This document shows, one piece after another, positions 12,160 to 21,691 of a stretch of 52,988 nucleotides of DNA. The stretch is taken from the NCBI GenBank assembly GCA_017856985.1, contig JAFMEA010000010.1, positions 1 through 52,988 on the forward strand. The letters are read 5' to 3'. The translations under genes were made by a program, and so were the position numbers. Source of the DNA: Planktomarina sp. (GTDB lineage Bacteria > Pseudomonadota > Alphaproteobacteria > Rhodobacterales > Rhodobacteraceae). Under the pieces are notes generated by a model. The model saw only the letters and a list, made by a program, of their open reading frames with translations, did not search any database and was not told the origin of the DNA. Within the stretch, counting starts at the first letter, position 1. Each line of letters starts with the position of its first letter.

Positions 12160-12195
12160 ATTTGTGATCACGGATTTTTTACCGTGATCACAAAT
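12160..12195. promoter_or_regulatory. paired GTGATCAC palindromes upstream of sucC (candidate operator)
   Basis: A perfect inverted repeat with 14-base arms (ATTTGTGATCACGG / CCGTGATCACAAAT) and an 8-base A/T spacer. Each arm itself contains the palindrome GTGATCAC, centred at 12167.5 and 12187.5, exactly 20 bp apart or about two helical turns. It lies 93-128 bp before the sucC start. No U-tract follows the repeat, so a simple terminator for gcdH is less likely than a double protein-binding site. The same octamer precedes the GntR gene at 20935-20942. Confidence 0.65.
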
Positions 12196-12287: not shown

Positions 12288-13484
12288 ATGAACATTCACG
12301 AATATCAGGCGAAAGCCTTGCTGCGGAGTTACGGCGCACCGGTATCGGATGGTAGGGTCGTACTAAAAGCTGACGAAGCGAAAATAGCTGCAAGCGAAAT
12401 GGATGGTCCACTTTGGGTTGTAAAAGCTCAGATCCATGCAGGGGGTCGAGGAAAAGGGCATTTCAAAGAGGCGGACGCCGGTGTAACCGGTGGAGTTCGT
12501 ATGGCTAAAAGTGTTGAGGAAGCCGAAAAAGAGGCAAAGGCTATGCTGGGCCGTACATTAGTCACTAAGCAAACTGGACCAGCCGGAAAGCAAGTTAATC
12601 GCGTTTATATTGAAGACGGTTCAGAAATAAAAAACGAGTTTTATCTCGCAATCTTGGTGGACAGGCAAACTAGTCGGATATCTTTTGTTGCCTCAACCGA
12701 GGGCGGCATGGACATTGAAGAGGTTGCCGCATCCACCCCGGAAAAAATAATATCCTTTTCAGTTGATCCAGCAACAGGATATCAGGGATTTCATGGACGG
12801 CGGATTGCATTTAATCTTGGACTAAGTGGAAAACAGGTTAAGCAATGCGTTACCTTGATGGGCAACCTTTTTCAGATGTTTGTAGAAAAAGATATGGAAA
12901 TGTTAGAAATAAATCCACTTATTGTGTCCGGCAGTGGAGATCTAAAATGCTTAGATGCCAAGATGGGATTTGATGGTAATGCCGTCTACCGACATGCTGA
13001 TATATCGGAATTGCGTGATACAACAGAAGAAGATCCAAAAGAACTTGAGGCCAGCAAACACGATCTGAATTATATAGCCCTAGACGGTGAAATTGGCTGT
13101 ATGGTCAATGGCGCAGGCTTGGCTATGGCCACCATGGATATAATTAAGCTCTACGGCGCAGAACCCGCAAACTTTCTGGACGTTGGGGGAGGTGCAACCA
13201 AAGAAAAGGTAACAGAAGCCTTTAAAATAATTACATCTGACCCACAGGTGAAAGGCATACTAGTCAATATCTTTGGTGGCATTATGCGTTGTGACGTAAT
13301 TGCTGAAGGCGTCGTTGCGGCAGTTAAGGAAGTCGGTCTAAAGGTTCCTTTGGTTGTAAGGCTTGAGGGTACTAATGTGGAAAAAGGTAAAAAGATCATA
13401 AATGAAAGTGATCTAAATGTAATTGCGGCCAATGACCTAAAAGATGGTGCCCAAAAGATTGTTGCGGCAGTTAAAGAAATTTGA
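12288..13484 (+). CDS. sucC: succinyl-CoA synthetase, beta subunit
   Basis: ADP/GDP-forming subunit of the TCA-cycle enzyme that makes succinate and NTP from succinyl-CoA. The 398-residue ATP-grasp protein starts with [16 protein letters not shown] and carries [12 protein letters not shown] (nucleotide-binding strand), LEINPLIV (metal ligands), and the C-terminal [18 protein letters not shown] power-helix region. AGGAAGACC precedes the ATG. First gene of the sucC-sucD-sucA-sucB-lpd block; mdh, often found upstream in alphaproteobacteria, is replaced here by gcdH on the other side of the operator-like repeat. Confidence 0.97.
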
Positions 13485-13531: not shown

Positions 13532-14413
13532 ATGGCCGTGCTAATTGATCAAAACACCAAAGTTATATGTCAGGGTTTTACGGGCAGTCAGGGCACATTC
13601 CATTCCGAACAAGCAATTGAATATGGCACCAACATGGTGGGCGGTGTGACGCCTGGAAAGGGCGGTCAATCACATCTAAACCTACCAGTATTCAATTCCG
13701 TACATGAAGCAAAGTCTGTTACAAACGCCAATGCAACGGTAATTTATGTTCCACCACCATTTGCCGCCGATTCAATATTGGAGGCAATTGATGCCCAAAT
13801 GGAAGTAATAGTATGTATCACCGAAGGCATTCCAGTTTTAGATATGATAAGAGTTAAAAGGGCACTGGAGGGGTCATCCAGCCGATTAGTGGGGCCCAAT
13901 TGCCCCGGCGTTATAACTCCCGGTGCTTGCAAGATTGGAATTATGCCAGGACACATCCACCACCGCGGATCAGTTGGCGTGGTGTCTCGGTCTGGAACTT
14001 TGACGTATGAGGCAGTTAAACAGACCACAGACGTAGGATTAGGCCAATCAACCTGCGTCGGCATAGGCGGTGATCCAATAAAGGGAACTGAGCACTTGGA
14101 TGTGCTGGAATGGTTCCTAGCGGATGATGAAACTGAGAGCATAATCATGATTGGAGAGATTGGCGGATCTGCGGAAGAAGAGGCTGCGCAATTTTTAGCT
14201 GACGAAAAGAAAAAAGGTAGATGGAAACCCACTGCTGGATTTATTGCAGGACGCACCGCGCCCCCTGGCCGCCGTATGGGCCATGCTGGCGCCATAGTGG
14301 CCGGTGGGAAAGGTGGGGCAGACGATAAAATAGAAGCAATGCGGTCAGCCGGAATTATTGTTGCGGAAAGTCCAGCTGGCCTAGGAGAAGCTGTATTAGA
14401 GGCGATAGGGTAA
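13532..14413 (+). CDS. sucD: succinyl-CoA synthetase, alpha subunit
   Basis: CoA-binding and phosphohistidine subunit. The 293 residues include the CoA-binding [16 protein letters not shown], the VGPNCPGVI and SRSGTLTYE loops, and the phosphorylated His251 in [11 protein letters not shown]. It begins 47 bases after sucC with AAAAGGAGCG just upstream, consistent with cotranscription and translation coupled to sucC levels. Confidence 0.97.
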
Positions 14414-14635: not shown

Positions 14636-17593
14636 ATGACTAATCATCCAGACAACACTCAATTTCATGCTTCCTCTTTCATGCAAAGCCACAACGCAGA
14701 GTACTTGGAACAAATGCATGCCCGCTACGCCACAAACCCAGAATCTGTAGATGAGCAATGGTCTAAATTTTTTAAAGAGCTTGGCGATGCTAATGTCGAA
14801 GCTTTAGCTGAGGCATCGGGGCCATCTTGGGGTCGAAACGATTGGCCACCACTCCCGATGGACGATCTTACATCTGCTCTGACTGGAGAATATCCCAACA
14901 CCACAAAAACTGCTAACCCTAACAAAAATATGCCTACTATGGCCGAGCAAAGTGATGCAAATCTTGATGACGACCAGATAAAGAGAGCCGTACTTGACAG
15001 TGTGCGTGCGTTAATGCTGATCCGCGCCTACCGAATTCGTGGTCACTTAAGCGCAGATCTTGATCCCTTAAATATGCGCATGGAAACCGAACGACCCGAA
15101 TTAGATCCCAATACTTATGGTTTTAATCAAGCTGACCTTGATAGGCCAATCTTTTTAGACAATGTCTTGGGTTTAAAATTTGCATCGATGCGCGAAATTC
15201 TTGAAATTGTTAGACGAACGTATAGTGGCACGTTCGCCCTACAATATATGCATATTTTGGACCCTGAACAATCCTCCTGGCTAAAGGAACGAATAGAGGG
15301 CTTTGGTAAAGAAATTAGTTTCACGCGTGAGGGACGAAAAGCTATTTTAAAAAAGCTTGTAGAAGCCGAGGGCTTTGAGAAATTTCTCCACGTAAAATAC
15401 ATGGGTACCAAGAGGTTTGGTCTTGATGGAGGAGAGAGCCTTATCCCAGCAATGGAGCAGATAATAAAACGTGGCGGCGCACTGGGTGTTAAAGACATAA
15501 TTATTGGAATGCCACATCGTGGCCGCTTATCTGTACTTGCCAATGTAATGGCAAAACCTTACCGCGCTATTTTTAATGAATTTCAGGGTGGATCCTCCAA
15601 GCCTGAGGACGTCGATGGATCAGGTGACGTAAAATATCACCTTGGAGCATCTTCAGATAGGGAGTTTGACGGCAATAACGTGCATCTTTCATTAACTGCA
15701 AACCCAAGTCATTTGGAGGCAGTAAATCCTGTAGTTTTGGGAAAAGCGCGCGCAAAGCAGGATCAAAATAATGATTCAGAGCGGACAACTGTTCTGCCAA
15801 TTCTGTTACATGGCGATGCGGCATTTGCAGGCCAAGGCATAATAGCTGAAGGTTTTGGCTTATCTGGCCTCAAAGGCCACAAAAATGGTGGGACAATACA
15901 CATTGTTGTAAATAACCAAATAGGTTTTACAACAGCACCCCACTTTAGCCGCTCCTCAGCATACCCAACAGATATTGCACTGATGGTAGAGGCACCCATC
16001 TTCCACGTGAATGGTGACGATCCTGAGGCAGTGGTTCATGCAGCGAAAGTAGCTACTGAGTATCGACAGAAATTTAAAAAAGACGTCGTTCTAGACATTA
16101 TTTGTTATCGGCGATTTGGCCATAACGAAGGTGATGAGCCAATGTTTACAAACCCCATAATGTATAAAAAAATTAAAAACCAAAAAACAACACTCTCACT
16201 CTACACCGCGCGCTTGGTAAAAGATGGCTTAATACCTGAAGGTGAAATTGAAGATAGTAAAGCTGACTTTCAGGCTTACCTAACTGCGGAGTTTGAAGCA
16301 GGTAAAAGCTATAAACCTAATAAAGCCGACTGGTTAGATGGCAGGTGGTCAAAAATAAATCGCCGTGGTGAAGAATATCAACGGGGTGACACAGCAATAC
16401 CCGAGACAACTTTCAACGACGTTGCAAAAGCTTTGGGACAAGTTCCAAATGAATTTCCAGTGCATAAAACAGTGCAAAGAATGCTTGATACAAAAGCTAA
16501 TAATTTAAAGTCTGGAAAAGAAATCGATTGGGCTACTGGTGAAGCATTGGCGTTTGGATCTTTATTAACTGAAGGTCACCCAGTGCGCCTATCTGGGCAA
16601 GACAGCACGCGTGGTACGTTTAGCCATCGGCACTCAGGATTGGTAAATCAAAATACAGAAGAGCGTTATTACCCTCTAAATAACATTCGTAAGGGACAGG
16701 GTGAATACGAAGTGATAGACTCGATGCTTTCTGAATACGCCGTCTTGGGTTTTGAATATGGCTATTCTTTGGCTGAACCAAACGCTTTAGTAATGTGGGA
16801 GGCTCAATTTGGAGATTTTGCAAATGGCGCCCAAATTATGTTTGACCAGTTTATTTCAAGCGGTGAAAGCAAATGGCTTCGGATGTCTGGGCTAACGATG
16901 CTCCTTCCACATGGCTTTGAAGGCCAAGGGCCAGAGCACAGTTCCGCAAGACTAGAGCGTTTTTTACAGATGTGTGGACAAGACAACTGGATTGTTGCGA
17001 ATTGCACAACACCAGCAAATTATTTTCATATTTTACGTCGTCAAATTCATCGTACGTTTCGCAAACCATTAGTACTAATGACCCCAAAATCACTACTACG
17101 TCACAAAATGGCAGTTTCAAAGCGCGAAGAGTTTACTTCGGGTTCTAGTTTTCATCGAGTTCTTTGGGACGATGCTCAATATGGAAATTCTAAAACCAAA
17201 CTTTTAGCTGACAAAAAAATTAAACGATTAGTTTTGTGCTCAGGTAAAGTTTACTATGACCTCCTCGAAGAAAGAGATGTGCGTGGAATCAACGATATAT
17301 ACCTCATGCGAATTGAACAATTCTATCCGTTCCCAGCCATATCCATGGTGAAAGAGCTGGAACGCTTCAAATCCTCGGACGTTGTCTGGTGTCAAGAAGA
17401 ACCAAAAAATCAAGGCGCATGGTCATTTATTGAACCTAATATTGAGTGGGTTCTCAATCGTATTGGCGCTCAAAACTTACGTCCAACTTACGTCGGACGT
17501 TCTGCCTCGGCCTCGCCTGCCACAGGCCTTGCATCAATTCATAAATCACAGCAAGCAGCGCTCATTGATGAAGCGCTAACGTTGAAAGGATAA
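14636..17593 (+). CDS. sucA: 2-oxoglutarate dehydrogenase E1 component
   Basis: Thiamine-diphosphate enzyme that decarboxylates 2-oxoglutarate and passes succinyl to the lipoyl arm of E2. At 985 residues it has the full family length. The N-terminal E2-binding segment with YLEQMHARYATNPESVDEQW is followed by the catalytic core with GMPHRGRLSVL, GDAAFAGQGI and VVNNQIGFTT (ThDP/Mg site), and the C-terminal transketolase-like half with RGTFSHRHS and LPHGFEGQGPEHSSAR. GAGGTAATC lies before the ATG. The 222 bases between sucD and sucA hold no convincing gene. Confidence 0.98.
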   Translation: MTNHPDNTQFHASSFMQSHNAEYLEQMHARYATNPESVDEQWSKFFKELGDANVEALAEASGPSWGRNDWPPLPMDDLTSALTGEYPNTTKTANPNKNMPTMAEQSDANLDDDQIKRAVLDSVRALMLIRAYRIRGHLSADLDPLNMRMETERPELDPNTYGFNQADLDRPIFLDNVLGLKFASMREILEIVRRTYSGTFALQYMHILDPEQSSWLKERIEGFGKEISFTREGRKAILKKLVEAEGFEKFLHVKYMGTKRFGLDGGESLIPAMEQIIKRGGALGVKDIIIGMPHRGRLSVLANVMAKPYRAIFNEFQGGSSKPEDVDGSGDVKYHLGASSDREFDGNNVHLSLTANPSHLEAVNPVVLGKARAKQDQNNDSERTTVLPILLHGDAAFAGQGIIAEGFGLSGLKGHKNGGTIHIVVNNQIGFTTAPHFSRSSAYPTDIALMVEAPIFHVNGDDPEAVVHAAKVATEYRQKFKKDVVLDIICYRRFGHNEGDEPMFTNPIMYKKIKNQKTTLSLYTARLVKDGLIPEGEIEDSKADFQAYLTAEFEAGKSYKPNKADWLDGRWSKINRRGEEYQRGDTAIPETTFNDVAKALGQVPNEFPVHKTVQRMLDTKANNLKSGKEIDWATGEALAFGSLLTEGHPVRLSGQDSTRGTFSHRHSGLVNQNTEERYYPLNNIRKGQGEYEVIDSMLSEYAVLGFEYGYSLAEPNALVMWEAQFGDFANGAQIMFDQFISSGESKWLRMSGLTMLLPHGFEGQGPEHSSARLERFLQMCGQDNWIVANCTTPANYFHILRRQIHRTFRKPLVLMTPKSLLRHKMAVSKREEFTSGSSFHRVLWDDAQYGNSKTKLLADKKIKRLVLCSGKVYYDLLEERDVRGINDIYLMRIEQFYPFPAISMVKELERFKSSDVVWCQEEPKNQGAWSFIEPNIEWVLNRIGAQNLRPTYVGRSASASPATGLASIHKSQQAALIDEALTLKG

Positions 17594-17596
17594 AAT

Positions 17597-18799
17597 ATGT
17601 CCACTGAAGTTCGTGTGCCCACTTTGGGTGAATCTGTCACTGAAGCAACTATTGCAACATGGTTTAAAAAAATTGGTGATCCCGTTGAATTGGATGAAAT
17701 GCTTTGTGAATTGGAAACAGATAAGGTAACCGTAGAAGTCCCTAGTCCTATAGCCGGCGTTATTACAGAAATTGTGGTCGCAGAGGGCTCTACCGTAAGC
17801 GTTGAAGCTTTATTAGCAAAAATTAGTGAAGGCGCTGTTGCACAGATAACCAAAGCCTCCGAACAGCTATCAAATCGAGCTAAGCAGGAGCCCAACTCAT
17901 CTAAATCTGAGACTATTGATATCGAAGATGCTCCATCAGCCAAAAAAATAATGGCTGAAAAAGGAATTACAAGATCCGACGTAATTCCTACTGGGAGGGA
18001 TGGACGTATCATGAAGGCCGATGTCCTTAAGGATCCTACTGGCGGAGCACCAGAGCTCACACCCATCAATACCCCCTCACCAGTACCAGTGAGTGATGCT
18101 TCACGCGAAGAGCGGGTAAAGATGACACGCCTACGCCAAACTATTGCCCGTCGCCTCAAGGACAGTCAAAATACTGCTGCCATGCTAACTACTTATAATG
18201 AAGTTGATATGACCGAGGTGATAGCATTACGTGATCAATACAAAGAACTATTCCTGAAAAAACACAGCGTAAAATTGGGCTTTATGTCCTTTTTTACTAT
18301 AGCCTGCTGTCACGCACTTAAGGAAGTGCCAGAAGTTAATGCTGAAGTCGACGGCACTGATATAATCTACAAAAACTTTGTTCATATCGGCATAGCCGCC
18401 GGTACACCGACCGGCCTTGTCGTGCCCGTAATTCGAGACGCAGACGCAATGTCATTTGCGCAGATAGAAAAGGAAATTGCAGAAAAAGGGTCCCGAGCAA
18501 GGGATGGAAAGCTGACAATGGCTGAAATGCAAGGCGGTACATTTACCATATCTAATGGAGGCGTTTACGGCTCTTTGATGTCGTCACCAATTCTAAACCC
18601 ACCACAATCAGGAATCTTGGGGATGCACAAAATTCAGGAGCGTCCGATAGCTTTGAATGGTCAAGTTGTAATTCGCCCGATGATGTATTTGGCCCTTAGC
18701 TATGATCATAGAATAGTCGATGGCAAGGGAGCAGTGACATTCCTTGTGAGAATTAAAGAAGCCCTAGAAGACCCACGTCGGTTACTCATGGATCTCTAA
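17597..18799 (+). CDS. sucB: dihydrolipoamide succinyltransferase (2-oxoglutarate dehydrogenase E2)
   Basis: Core of the 2-oxoglutarate dehydrogenase complex. Of 400 residues, the lipoyl domain occupies 1-75, with Lys43 in [11 protein letters not shown] as lipoylation site. A peripheral-subunit-binding segment follows ([18 protein letters not shown], about 114-131), then a Ser/Pro-rich linker and the acyltransferase domain with the catalytic His in [16 protein letters not shown] near the C-terminus. Only three bases separate it from sucA, so the two are cotranscribed and probably translationally coupled. Confidence 0.97.
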
Positions 18800-18884
18800 C
18801 AGGTTAAAAAGTGGTTTTAAAAATCTAAAAGATGTTATTTTGCGTTATAAATCGCATTACTGTTCAACTAGAAGGATAAGTCTC

Positions 18885-20273
18885 GTGGCTTCATACGACG
18901 TAATTGTGATTGGTTCCGGTCCCGGCGGATATGTAAGCGCTATTCGCTGCGCTCAGTTAGGGCTAAAAACAGCTTGCGTAGAAGGTAGAGATACCCTGGG
19001 AGGCACATGCCTTAATGTAGGTTGTATCCCATCAAAAGCTTTGTTGCACGCCAGCCATCAACTCCATGAAGCACAACATAACTTTGCAAAAATGGGCCTA
19101 ATAGCTGATAATCCTTCTGTTGATTGGAACAAGATGCAGGGATACAAATCTGAAGTTATTGAGGGAAATACTAAAGGCATTGAATTTTTATTTAAGAAGA
19201 ACAAAATCGACTGGTTAAAGGGCTGGGCATCGATTCCTAGCGTTGGAGAAATTCTTATTGGTGATGAAACATACACAGCCAAGCATATTATTATAGCAAG
19301 TGGGTCAGAACCTTCGGCCCTTCCAGGAATTAAGATCGACGAAAAAATAGTGGTCACCTCCACAGGGGCTCTTGCCCTAGACAAAATACCTGCAAAAATG
19401 ATCGTCATTGGTGCCGGCGTAATTGGTCTTGAGCTTGGATCCGTTTATGCACGCCTAGGCACAGAAGTAGAGGTTATAGAATTTTTAGATGAAATCACCC
19501 CAGGCATGGATGCAGAAATTCAAAAGAATTTTAAACGTATATTAAAAAAACAAGGCCTCAAATTTACCATGGGTTCGGCTGTAAAATCAGTTTCTGTTAA
19601 AAATAAAACAGCCAGCGTTACTTACGTAAACCAAAAAAAAGATACCGAGCACCAGGTCGATGCTGACGTAGTATTAGTTGCAACTGGACGAAAGCCATTC
19701 CTTGATGGACTAGGTCTTGAAGCTCTTGGTATAACGCTCACAGACGGTGGACAGATCAAAACTGATAGCAATTATTCAACAAATATCACAGGGGTCTATG
19801 CTATAGGAGATGCCATAAGTGGACCCATGTTGGCTCATAAAGCTGAAGATGAAGGCATGGCAGTAGCCGAGATTTTAGCTGGCCAAGCTGGGCACGTAAA
19901 CTACGGAGTAATTCCCGGTGTAATCTATACGCACCCAGAAGTTGCTTCTGTTGGCTTAACCGAGGAACAATTGAAAGAAACCGGGAATGAATTTAAGGTA
20001 GGCAAGTTTTCATTCATGGGAAATGGCCGTGCAAAGGCAAATTTTGCTGGTGAAGGATTTGTAAAAATTCTCGCCGACGCAGCCACCGACCGTATTTTAG
20101 GCGCACATATTATTGGGCCAATGGCGGGCGATTTAGTTCACGAGATTTGTGTTGCGATGGAGTTTGGCGCGGCAGCTGAAGATCTTGCTCGGACCTGCCA
20201 TGCTCATCCAACTTATTCAGAGGCGGTACGCGAAGCAGCCTTGGCCTGTGGCAGCGGCGCAATTCATAGCTAA
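18885..20273 (+). CDS. lpd: dihydrolipoamide dehydrogenase (E3)
   Basis: FAD enzyme that reoxidises the lipoyl arm and reduces NAD. The 462 residues contain the N-terminal FAD fold [18 protein letters not shown], the redox disulfide [15 protein letters not shown], the NAD fold [18 protein letters not shown], and the C-terminal His-Glu pair in [10 protein letters not shown]. The start chosen is GTG at 18885 ([10 protein letters not shown]) with GAAGGA 9 bases upstream; an in-frame TTG at 18840 has no ribosome-binding site. Being last in the suc block suggests this E3 serves the oxoglutarate complex. The GntR gene converges on it 8 bases away. Confidence 0.96.
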
Positions 20274-20281
20274 TAAATTCT

Positions 20282-20926
20282 TTAACGAGCCAGCATGCGC
20301 AGACCCTGGGTCACGTCAGCACGGACAGCCATACGTAATCCTGGCTCGTCGCCTGCCTTAAGAGCTGCCAATATTAGCCTATGGTTGACTGGTGGCTCTT
20401 TACGCTGAAGTCGCCCGTAGAGAGAGCGCATTGTTGGGCCCATTTGCAACCAAACTGTTTCAACCGTAGCCAACATTGCCGGAGCCTGCGCCCTAAGATA
20501 AAGAGTACGGTGAAACTCTAGGTTGGTTTTGATGTAGGCCACAGCGTCTGATTTAGCGATAGCCACTGCAATTGAGTCGTTAATATTCTGCAGTCGCTCC
20601 ACTAATGCCAAGTGTACCCGTGGTAGAGCACGCGACGCGAGCTCAACTTCAATAAGGGCGCGTAGAGAGGCTAACTCCTCTATACGATCATTCGAGAGTT
20701 CCGGAGTTTGAAATCTACCAGTCACCGAAATACTCAGAGCACCCTCTGCCGCCAAACGTTTCAATGCTTCCCGCACAGGGGTAACCGAAACACTGAATTC
20801 TGCAGCTATCCCCCTAAGGGTCATCGCTTGCGCAGGCTTCGCCTCCCCGTACATTATACGCCGGCGCAAAATACGAAATAACTGATCATGGGTTGATAAA
20901 TAATTATCTTCTAACTTCTCTGACAT
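20282..20926 (-). CDS. GntR-family transcriptional regulator, FCD (FadR-like) subfamily
   Basis: Protein of 214 residues. The N-terminal winged helix-turn-helix (about 12-75) contains LRGIAAEFSVSVTPVREALKRLAAEGAL, split here by LRGIAAEFSVSV and TPVREALKRLA, typical of the GntR fold. The C-terminal all-helical FCD ligand domain (about 85-208) has EFHRTLY and VNHRLILAALKAGDE, two of the usual His ligand positions; the final His expected near the end appears replaced in VRADVTQG, so metal binding may be altered. The gene converges on lpd and has a GTGATCAC palindrome immediately before its start, the same motif as upstream of sucC. I infer autoregulation and control of the suc block; the effector is unknown. 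Confidence 0.9.
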   Translation of the reverse strand: MSEKLEDNYLSTHDQLFRILRRRIMYGEAKPAQAMTLRGIAAEFSVSVTPVREALKRLAAEGALSISVTGRFQTPELSNDRIEELASLRALIEVELASRALPRVHLALVERLQNINDSIAVAIAKSDAVAYIKTNLEFHRTLYLRAQAPAMLATVETVWLQMGPTMRSLYGRLQRKEPPVNHRLILAALKAGDEPGLRMAVRADVTQGLRMLAR

Positions 20927-20933
20927 AGGCCTT

Positions 20934-20960
20934 TGTGATCACATTTTTTTACACTGTCAA
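20934..20960 (-). promoter_or_regulatory. candidate promoter and self-operator of the GntR gene
   Basis: On the minus strand TTGACA (20955-20960) is a perfect -35 box. Seventeen bases on, at the -10 position, lies CACAAA inside TTTGTGATCACA read from the other strand (10-bp perfect palindrome TGTGATCACA at 20934-20943). The palindrome ends 7 bases before the ATG. A protein bound here would cover the -10 box and ribosome-binding region, as expected for autorepression. Confidence 0.6.
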
Positions 20961-20971
20961 ATTAGAAGCAT

Positions 20972-21691
20972 TCAAAACTTGTAACTATGTAAATTTTCAC
21001 CATTTACCTTTAACCAATTTCGTTGCTGGTCATAATTAGGGAAAAGCTGTTCCACAACAGACCAAAATTTCGGAGAATGGTTCATTTCCACTAAATGGGC
21101 TGCTTCGTGCGCGCAAACATAATTTAATACATCCGAAGGCGCCATAATTAATCGCCACGAGTAATTTATGTTGCCTGCAGAGGAACATGACCCCCACCTT
21201 GATATTGTATCACGCAAAGTAAGTTTACCATAAGGCCGCCCCAACGCCTCTGCGTAAAAATCAGTCGATGCTCTTAAAGCTTGTCTTGCTTGAAGTTTTA
21301 GGAATACTTTTGTTCGAGAAGAAATCATTGATTGAGGGCCTGGTACAATTAAATTTGAAACCTCTGGTATCACTTTTTTACCTTGGCCCATGCGTATGGT
21401 AAATTTATTTCCTCGATATAGAAGTTGGGTACCCACACATACTTGTATATTTGTTGGTAGGGCTATCAAATTTTTTCTAATCCACGGTTCTTTTTCGATT
21501 AAAAAGGATTTCGCCTGCGTAAGAGGGCAGGAAATTGGTAAACTTAGAGTTACCAGTCCTTTTATTCGTGAAATTCGAAGTGACAATCTTTTTGAACGCC
21601 TGGATCTACGCAAAACAACACTAATTTGGGGATTTCCTGGCAAGAACACGAGCTGTTCAGAAGAAATTGATGCTGAATTCATACAAGACAT
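20972..21691 (-). CDS. YgjP-like (DUF45, SprT/M48-type) metal-dependent hydrolase
   Basis: Predicted cytosolic zinc protein of 239 residues. The family N-terminal half with RRSRRSKRLSLRIS precedes the zinc motif HEAAH (195-199) and third ligand His205 in MNHSPKFW, followed by LFPNYDQQRNWLK, the standard DUF45 signature. RDTISRWGSCSSAGNINYSWRL is also a family hallmark. The cellular substrate of this family is not firmly known. It lies upstream of the GntR gene on the same strand, 45 bases apart, but that gap holds a promoter-like signal. It is divergent from the FYDLN protein gene. Confidence 0.9.
   Translation of the reverse strand: MSCMNSASISSEQLVFLPGNPQISVVLRRSRRSKRLSLRISRIKGLVTLSLPISCPLTQAKSFLIEKEPWIRKNLIALPTNIQVCVGTQLLYRGNKFTIRMGQGKKVIPEVSNLIVPGPQSMISSRTKVFLKLQARQALRASTDFYAEALGRPYGKLTLRDTISRWGSCSSAGNINYSWRLIMAPSDVLNYVCAHEAAHLVEMNHSPKFWSVVEQLFPNYDQQRNWLKVNGENLHSYKF

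Follow-up and report, generated by a model that had tools for sequence, protein, structure and literature searches.

In Rhodobacter sphaeroides, the GntR-family protein RSP_0981 has been predicted to regulate the genes for succinyl-CoA synthetase, succinate dehydrogenase and 2-oxoglutarate dehydrogenase (portions of PMC4344238). AkgR is called a transcriptional activator, with GTGATCAC among its sites, in excerpts of PMC6365646, where the same octamer is also proposed for PS417_07240, a GntR-like protein of Pseudomonas simiae that is 32% identical to AkgR. The palindrome stands before the regulator's own gene there, as it does at the locus described here, but PS417_07240 differs from AkgR in serving another pathway – it belongs to a deoxyribonate cluster – and in heading its own cluster (same excerpts). 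A third relative, Escherichia coli McbR/YncC (PDB 4p9f), is the best match of our regulator in both profile and fold searches. The targets of McbR/YncC differ from those of AkgR, and we take RSP_0981 and AkgR to be one protein.

The main text of PMC4344238 contains no word beginning with 'autoregul', and no published account of AkgR autoregulation was found among the literature titles and opening parts of abstracts listed; the primary AkgR paper may contain one.

The window – the whole analysed stretch of 52,988 nucleotides from a Planktomarina sp. contig – carries a GntR/FCD regulator gene next to a suc block. The initial annotation knew of no described regulator with this arrangement, but the gene matches AkgR (RSP_0981) of R. 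sphaeroides, as far as the excerpted sources go. The likeness covers an orthologous protein (68% identity to the G051 gene), the octamer, sucCD and 2-oxoglutarate dehydrogenase as main targets and a pair of octamers before sucC in genome G051, which we infer to be R. sphaeroides 2.4.1 (see below). Unlike its G051 counterpart, the akgR gene of the window has an operator on its own promoter; furthermore, an sdhC pair present in G051 is missing from the genome of the window, which has an extra pair before an aldehyde dehydrogenase gene. The regulator and its suc and sdh targets are known already; what may be new is the regulator's site on its own promoter, together with the lack of that site in the model species.

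The suc–akgR locus

The features of the locus are as follows (predicted operators are given without strand).

12164..12171: distal predicted AkgR operator of sucC, in arm TTTGTGATCACGG (12161-12173)
12184..12191: proximal predicted AkgR operator of sucC, in arm CCGTGATCACAAA (12182-12194)
12288..13484, plus strand: sucC, which opens the proposed target block; open frame, 82% identical to G051 sucC
13532..14413, plus strand: sucD; open frame, 86% identical in G051
14636..17593, plus strand: sucA; open frame, 75% identical in G051
17597..18799, plus strand: sucB; open frame with matches in G051
18840..20273, plus strand: lpd; open frame with matches in G051 (partial, at the region edge) and in the congener G045; the listed TTG is probably slightly ahead of its true start
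20282..20926, minus strand: akgR, GntR/FCD regulator of 214 aa (Pfam FCD 1.3e-17, GntR 2.9e-13)
20935..20942: predicted AkgR operator GTGATCAC over the akgR -10 region; exact sequence, present without mismatch in 74 of 91 orthologous promoters
20934-20943: extended predicted operator TGTGATCACA at akgR; exact sequence
20955..20960, minus strand: akgR -35 element TTGACA; by sequence; in 63 of 74 promoters with the operator, TTGAC precedes the octamer by exactly 18 nt
20972..21691, minus strand: gene for a YgjP-like metallopeptidase (Pfam YgjP-like 2.5e-49), the same-strand upstream neighbour of akgR

As had been annotated, the regulator gene converges on lpd, the last gene of the suc block. There are just three copies of the octamer GTGATCAC in the window, at 12164, 12184 and 20935, whereas 100 shuffles of the window held 0.54 copies on average and none reached three. 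The annotation had located copies only before the regulator gene and before sucC; both places stand, although the copies at sucC are two, 20 bp apart, and not one. Together they form a single inverted repeat, TTTGTGATCACGG-N8-CCGTGATCACAAA (12161-12194), with 13-bp arms, each containing a palindrome of its own. The repeat lies 62 bp past the stop codon of the upstream acyl-CoA dehydrogenase gene, and 96 bp separate its proximal octamer from the sucC ATG.

An ortholog of AkgR

An N-terminal GntR winged helix and a C-terminal FCD domain are both recognised above the Pfam cut-offs, and in the AlphaFold model (mean pLDDT 84) the C-terminal part is all helical. Only two genes in the genome of the window match the FCD model. 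The protein is 68% identical over 210 aa to a GntR gene of G051 (one-way best match, E 2.4e-89), and a close homolog (best E <=1e-53) is found in 177 of 198 genomes of the family.

The identity of G051 was approached through its reaction-centre M protein (PufM), a stretch of which is identical over 254 aa to solved reaction centres in the PDB. The species of those structures we take to be R. sphaeroides, from which G051 is inferred to be R. sphaeroides 2.4.1. The G051 homolog lies about 4.7 kb from sdhC, with ygjP upstream as in the window, and this is the place expected for RSP_0981 from its locus number. By sequence, the regulator gene of the window is an ortholog of AkgR (RSP_0981).

Within the FCD domain, N135, H139, H182 and D204 are conserved at a fraction of 1.0 (rounded) over 170 aligned rows. 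Metal-binding FCD proteins use Asp-His-His-His as metal ligands; where these would carry Asp, our regulator has the invariant Asn135, a point of difference from McbR/YncC. The latter provides the best match both in the profile search (4p9f, 4e-24) and in the fold search (4p9f, TM 0.80, 28% identity), in which the matched structures also include VanR repressors. No ligand for AkgR is indicated by the structure search, which yielded fold neighbours only.

Paired octamers upstream of TCA-cycle genes

Octamer pairs with a spacing of 16-28 bp were found in 175 of the 198 family genomes, usually two pairs per genome, a count that may still include cases like coding matches and a 28-bp repeated element. 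In this family scan the spacing is mostly 21 bp among the matches listed, where the linkers differ freely. A class-wide scan at 19-22 bp spacing found pairs in 4/4 members of the family versus 3/285 other genomes. A control with the reversed pattern gave 0 in the 198 family genomes, 7 versus 22 in the genome of the window and 10 in the unrelated genome G289; CTAG being rare, we think that this control is biased low by the CTAG it contains, and rely on the class-wide scan instead.

Thirty pair loci were fetched, of which 28 lie before sucC (15), sdhC (11), sucA (1) or fumC (1), at 96-191 bp from the start codon; the fumC locus (L070/L295:1994-2147, G042) has its pair 124 bp before this class II fumarase gene, and the two remaining loci, L062 (of the 27-28 bp class) and L069, look coding. 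An apparent further target, mdh in G204, was rejected: mdh reads toward the pair (L296), which follows it at a contig edge.

Pair and regulator tend to occur together, as the initial annotation had proposed to check: of the 198 genomes, 172 have both, five the regulator only, three the pair only and 18 neither (Fisher 2.7e-18, kinship ignored). Several of the exceptions are incomplete genomes; two others, G040 and G114, are listed at 100%.

The akgR promoter

Read on the minus strand into akgR, the window has the layout TTGACA-N11-TGTGATCACA-N7-ATG, in which the ATG begins at 20926, 34 nt from the first base of TTGACA. The window's letters bear out the annotated position of the octamer, at the expected -10 place 17 bp past TTGACA and before the ATG. 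The reading as a -10 box holds for position rather than quality: the 17-bp spacer leads to CACAAA, a weak -10 hexamer that shares bases with the octamer's right half.

This layout was followed through 91 akgR loci, made up of 90 of the 91 top-scoring homologs (with that of the window among them, but without a second copy in G193) plus G051, a sample that leans towards relatives of the window's organism. The exact octamer stands within 120 nt before codon 12 in 74 of the 91 and is absent from 17; none was found 121-300 nt before codon 12 in any of them. When the promoters are aligned on the octamer, TTGAC precedes it by exactly 18 nt in 63 of the 74, and by 17-20 nt in 70, while the 13 nt in between are variable, except for T-rich positions adjoining the octamer. 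Among TTGAC-to-ATG distances of 30-40 nt in the 74 operator-bearing loci, 67 of 78 are 34-36 nt. With the -35 element at the conserved TTGAC place, the -10 element would fall within the octamer and the transcription start on the ATG. To judge from sequence, the akgR promoter fits a self-repressed one, with a leaderless transcript and an operator over the -10 element.

At 86 of the 91 loci, ygjP is the same-strand gene ahead of akgR, and in 31 of the 74 operator-bearing ones its stop codon TGA doubles as part of the -35 TTGAC. That TTGAC is kept merely as the ygjP stop was considered and rejected, as 40 of the 43 loci without a shared stop still have it. Among the 17 octamer-free promoters, 11 keep TTGAC at 35-36 nt from the ATG, so the akgR promoter seems able to work without the site.

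A proposed dual-mode circuit and its alternatives

The arrangement that we regard as highly probable, on sequence grounds, is one in which the AkgR ortholog activates sucCD-sucAB-lpd from the octamer pair and represses its own leaderless promoter from the single site. AkgR dimers would bind GTGATCAC. At sucC, the two sites, separated by 20 bp here and by 21 bp in most of the relatives fetched, would face the same side of the helix and take up two dimers per pair well upstream of the start codon, and bound AkgR – published as an activator, in the excerpts of PMC6365646 – would raise transcription of sucCD-sucAB-lpd. At akgR, the single site would cover the -10 element of a transcript starting at the ATG and therefore leaderless, where AkgR would block RNA polymerase and limit its own amount. 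A metabolite, probably a small carboxylate bound within the FCD pocket, would act as the signal.

The initial annotation had proposed here an autoregulated circuit for 2-oxoglutarate/succinyl-CoA flux. Conservation speaks for it – at 28 of 30 pair loci and 74 of 91 promoters, and in the co-occurrence of pair and regulator – even though the regulator had already been described. A conserved promoter word is in this way tied to a named central-metabolism regulator in a large bacterial family, and an exact, testable layout is supplied for the akgR promoter.

GntR/FCD proteins are mostly repressors, which counts for a different reading of the pair, as do the VanR repressors among the solved structures matched: AkgR might repress sucC too, the pair being a repression operator that a metabolite releases. 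The description of AkgR as a transcriptional activator (excerpts of PMC6365646) and the position of the pair, which keeps a fairly constant distance well ahead of the start codon, argue against this, and we consider it unlikely.

The same printed description (PMC6365646, in part) would by contrast favour positive feedback, with AkgR activating its own gene from the single site. Yet that site overlaps the end of the spacer and the -10 element (18 nt past TTGAC in 63/74), where a bound dimer would block the polymerase; the presumed activated targets have a pair in place of a single site, at a distance of 96-191 bp from the start codon; and 11 of 17 octamer-free promoters keep TTGAC 35-36 nt from the ATG. 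Self-activation accordingly seems quite improbable.

That a different regulator with the same motif owns the sites we hold to be very unlikely. The proposal of GTGATCAC for a Pseudomonas GntR protein as well (excerpts of PMC6365646), and a distant FCD gene outside the family, 25% identical, with a pair before it, would suit such an owner; against it stand the mere two FCD-matching genes in the genome, the co-occurrence of sites and akgR, and the site on akgR's own promoter.

Finally, the sucC repeat has the 13-bp inverted arms, and the place 62 bp past a stop codon, of a terminator or RNA hairpin of the acyl-CoA dehydrogenase gene – the akgR copy then being coincidence – but this reading is hardly credible and was dropped, as the second arm is not followed by a run of T, both arms contain palindromes of their own, and the same pair recurs before sdhC, sucA and fumC with linkers that vary freely among the matches listed.

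Presence and absence of the self-site

Returning to the preferred reading of activation from pairs and self-repression from the single site, the octamer was not found in the akgR promoter of G051, where TTGAC is retained 36 nt before the ATG. With the operator absent from G051, the inferred R. sphaeroides, autoregulation is not transferable from the studied species, which seems to be without the proposed self-control loop of most examined relatives of the window's organism.

A further set comprised 80 named loci, the best among the matches listed for the G051 regulator (R. sphaeroides itself is not among them). The octamer is on the akgR promoter in 14 of these and absent from 66; where enough upstream DNA was available, the sucC pair is there in 8/8 and the sdhC pair in 3/4. 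In a FastTree phylogeny built from 170 distinct rows (171 loci, the octamer being present in 87), presence and absence require 14 changes versus a mean of 57 with shuffled labels, on a tree with many weakly supported branches, and such counts do not separate gain from loss.

A further indication comes from the promoters without the octamer, 63 of 83 of which have TTGAC. For 11 of the 63, the sequence at the expected place differs from the octamer by at most two mismatches, versus 2% in simulations (65% GC), which suggests that some akgR sites have decayed and were not simply never present. From these sequences, the relatives of R. sphaeroides are mostly without the akgR self-site and have probably lost it.

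Possible rewiring in Planktomarina

In the genome of the window (2.58 Mb, 175 contigs), TGTGATCAC is found at 17 distinct positions on either strand. Twelve lie inside open frames of at least 100 aa, two of these frames being just 104 and 134 aa long, and five lie outside, namely both sites at sucC, the one at akgR and two before an aldehyde dehydrogenase gene. Outside open frames, the genome-wide scan that had been suggested thus reveals no scatter of the motif, all five positions fitting the proposed scheme. The extended form TGTGATCACA has 15 copies in the congener G045, three accounted for by sucC (a pair) and akgR and 12 lying elsewhere, and three copies in G051, all at sucC and sdhC.

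No AkgR site was found in the sdhC promoter of the window's genome (L113:3845-4100, contig C29). In the congeners G200, G207 and G215, sdhC is preceded by pairs spaced 19-20 bp, and in G045 by a pair with one mismatch. With its sdhC site absent, the regulon in the window's genome differs from the published AkgR regulon.

The additional pair, two perfect GTGATCAC copies 23 bp apart, precedes the aldehyde dehydrogenase gene at C114:151062-151094 (L023:9063-9095). It recurs with other linkers in the two other genomes with full-length close orthologs of the enzyme, G214 (94% identical, 22 bp) and G212 (86% identical, 31 bp, one mismatch in the second site); the ortholog in G202 (83%) is cut by a contig end. 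Six genomes with homologs at 57-60% identity yielded no pair in the loci examined; one locus of this set, L310, has two isolated octamers. Against NCBIfam, all of the enzyme's matches among those listed are below the cut-off.

Taken jointly, these points could describe an AkgR that acts in a dual mode in many Rhodobacteraceae, phased pairs activating suc and sdh and a single -10 site repressing a leaderless akgR, with relatives of R. sphaeroides mostly without the feedback, which was probably lost, and with Planktomarina rewired by loss of the sdh site and, in some members, gain of the aldehyde dehydrogenase as a target – a composite that we would neither favour nor disfavour as a whole.

Other occurrences of the octamer

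Near unrelated genes of congeners, four further pairs were seen whose octamers stand 28 bp apart and whose linkers resemble one another (L287:2032, L290:2049, L291:2055 and L292:2000). They look like a separate repeated element and were not counted as AkgR sites. An octamer pair also stands before the distant FCD-type gene outside the family (L298:992-1813, 25% identical), and on this sequence, use of the octamer may extend to FCD regulators more broadly.
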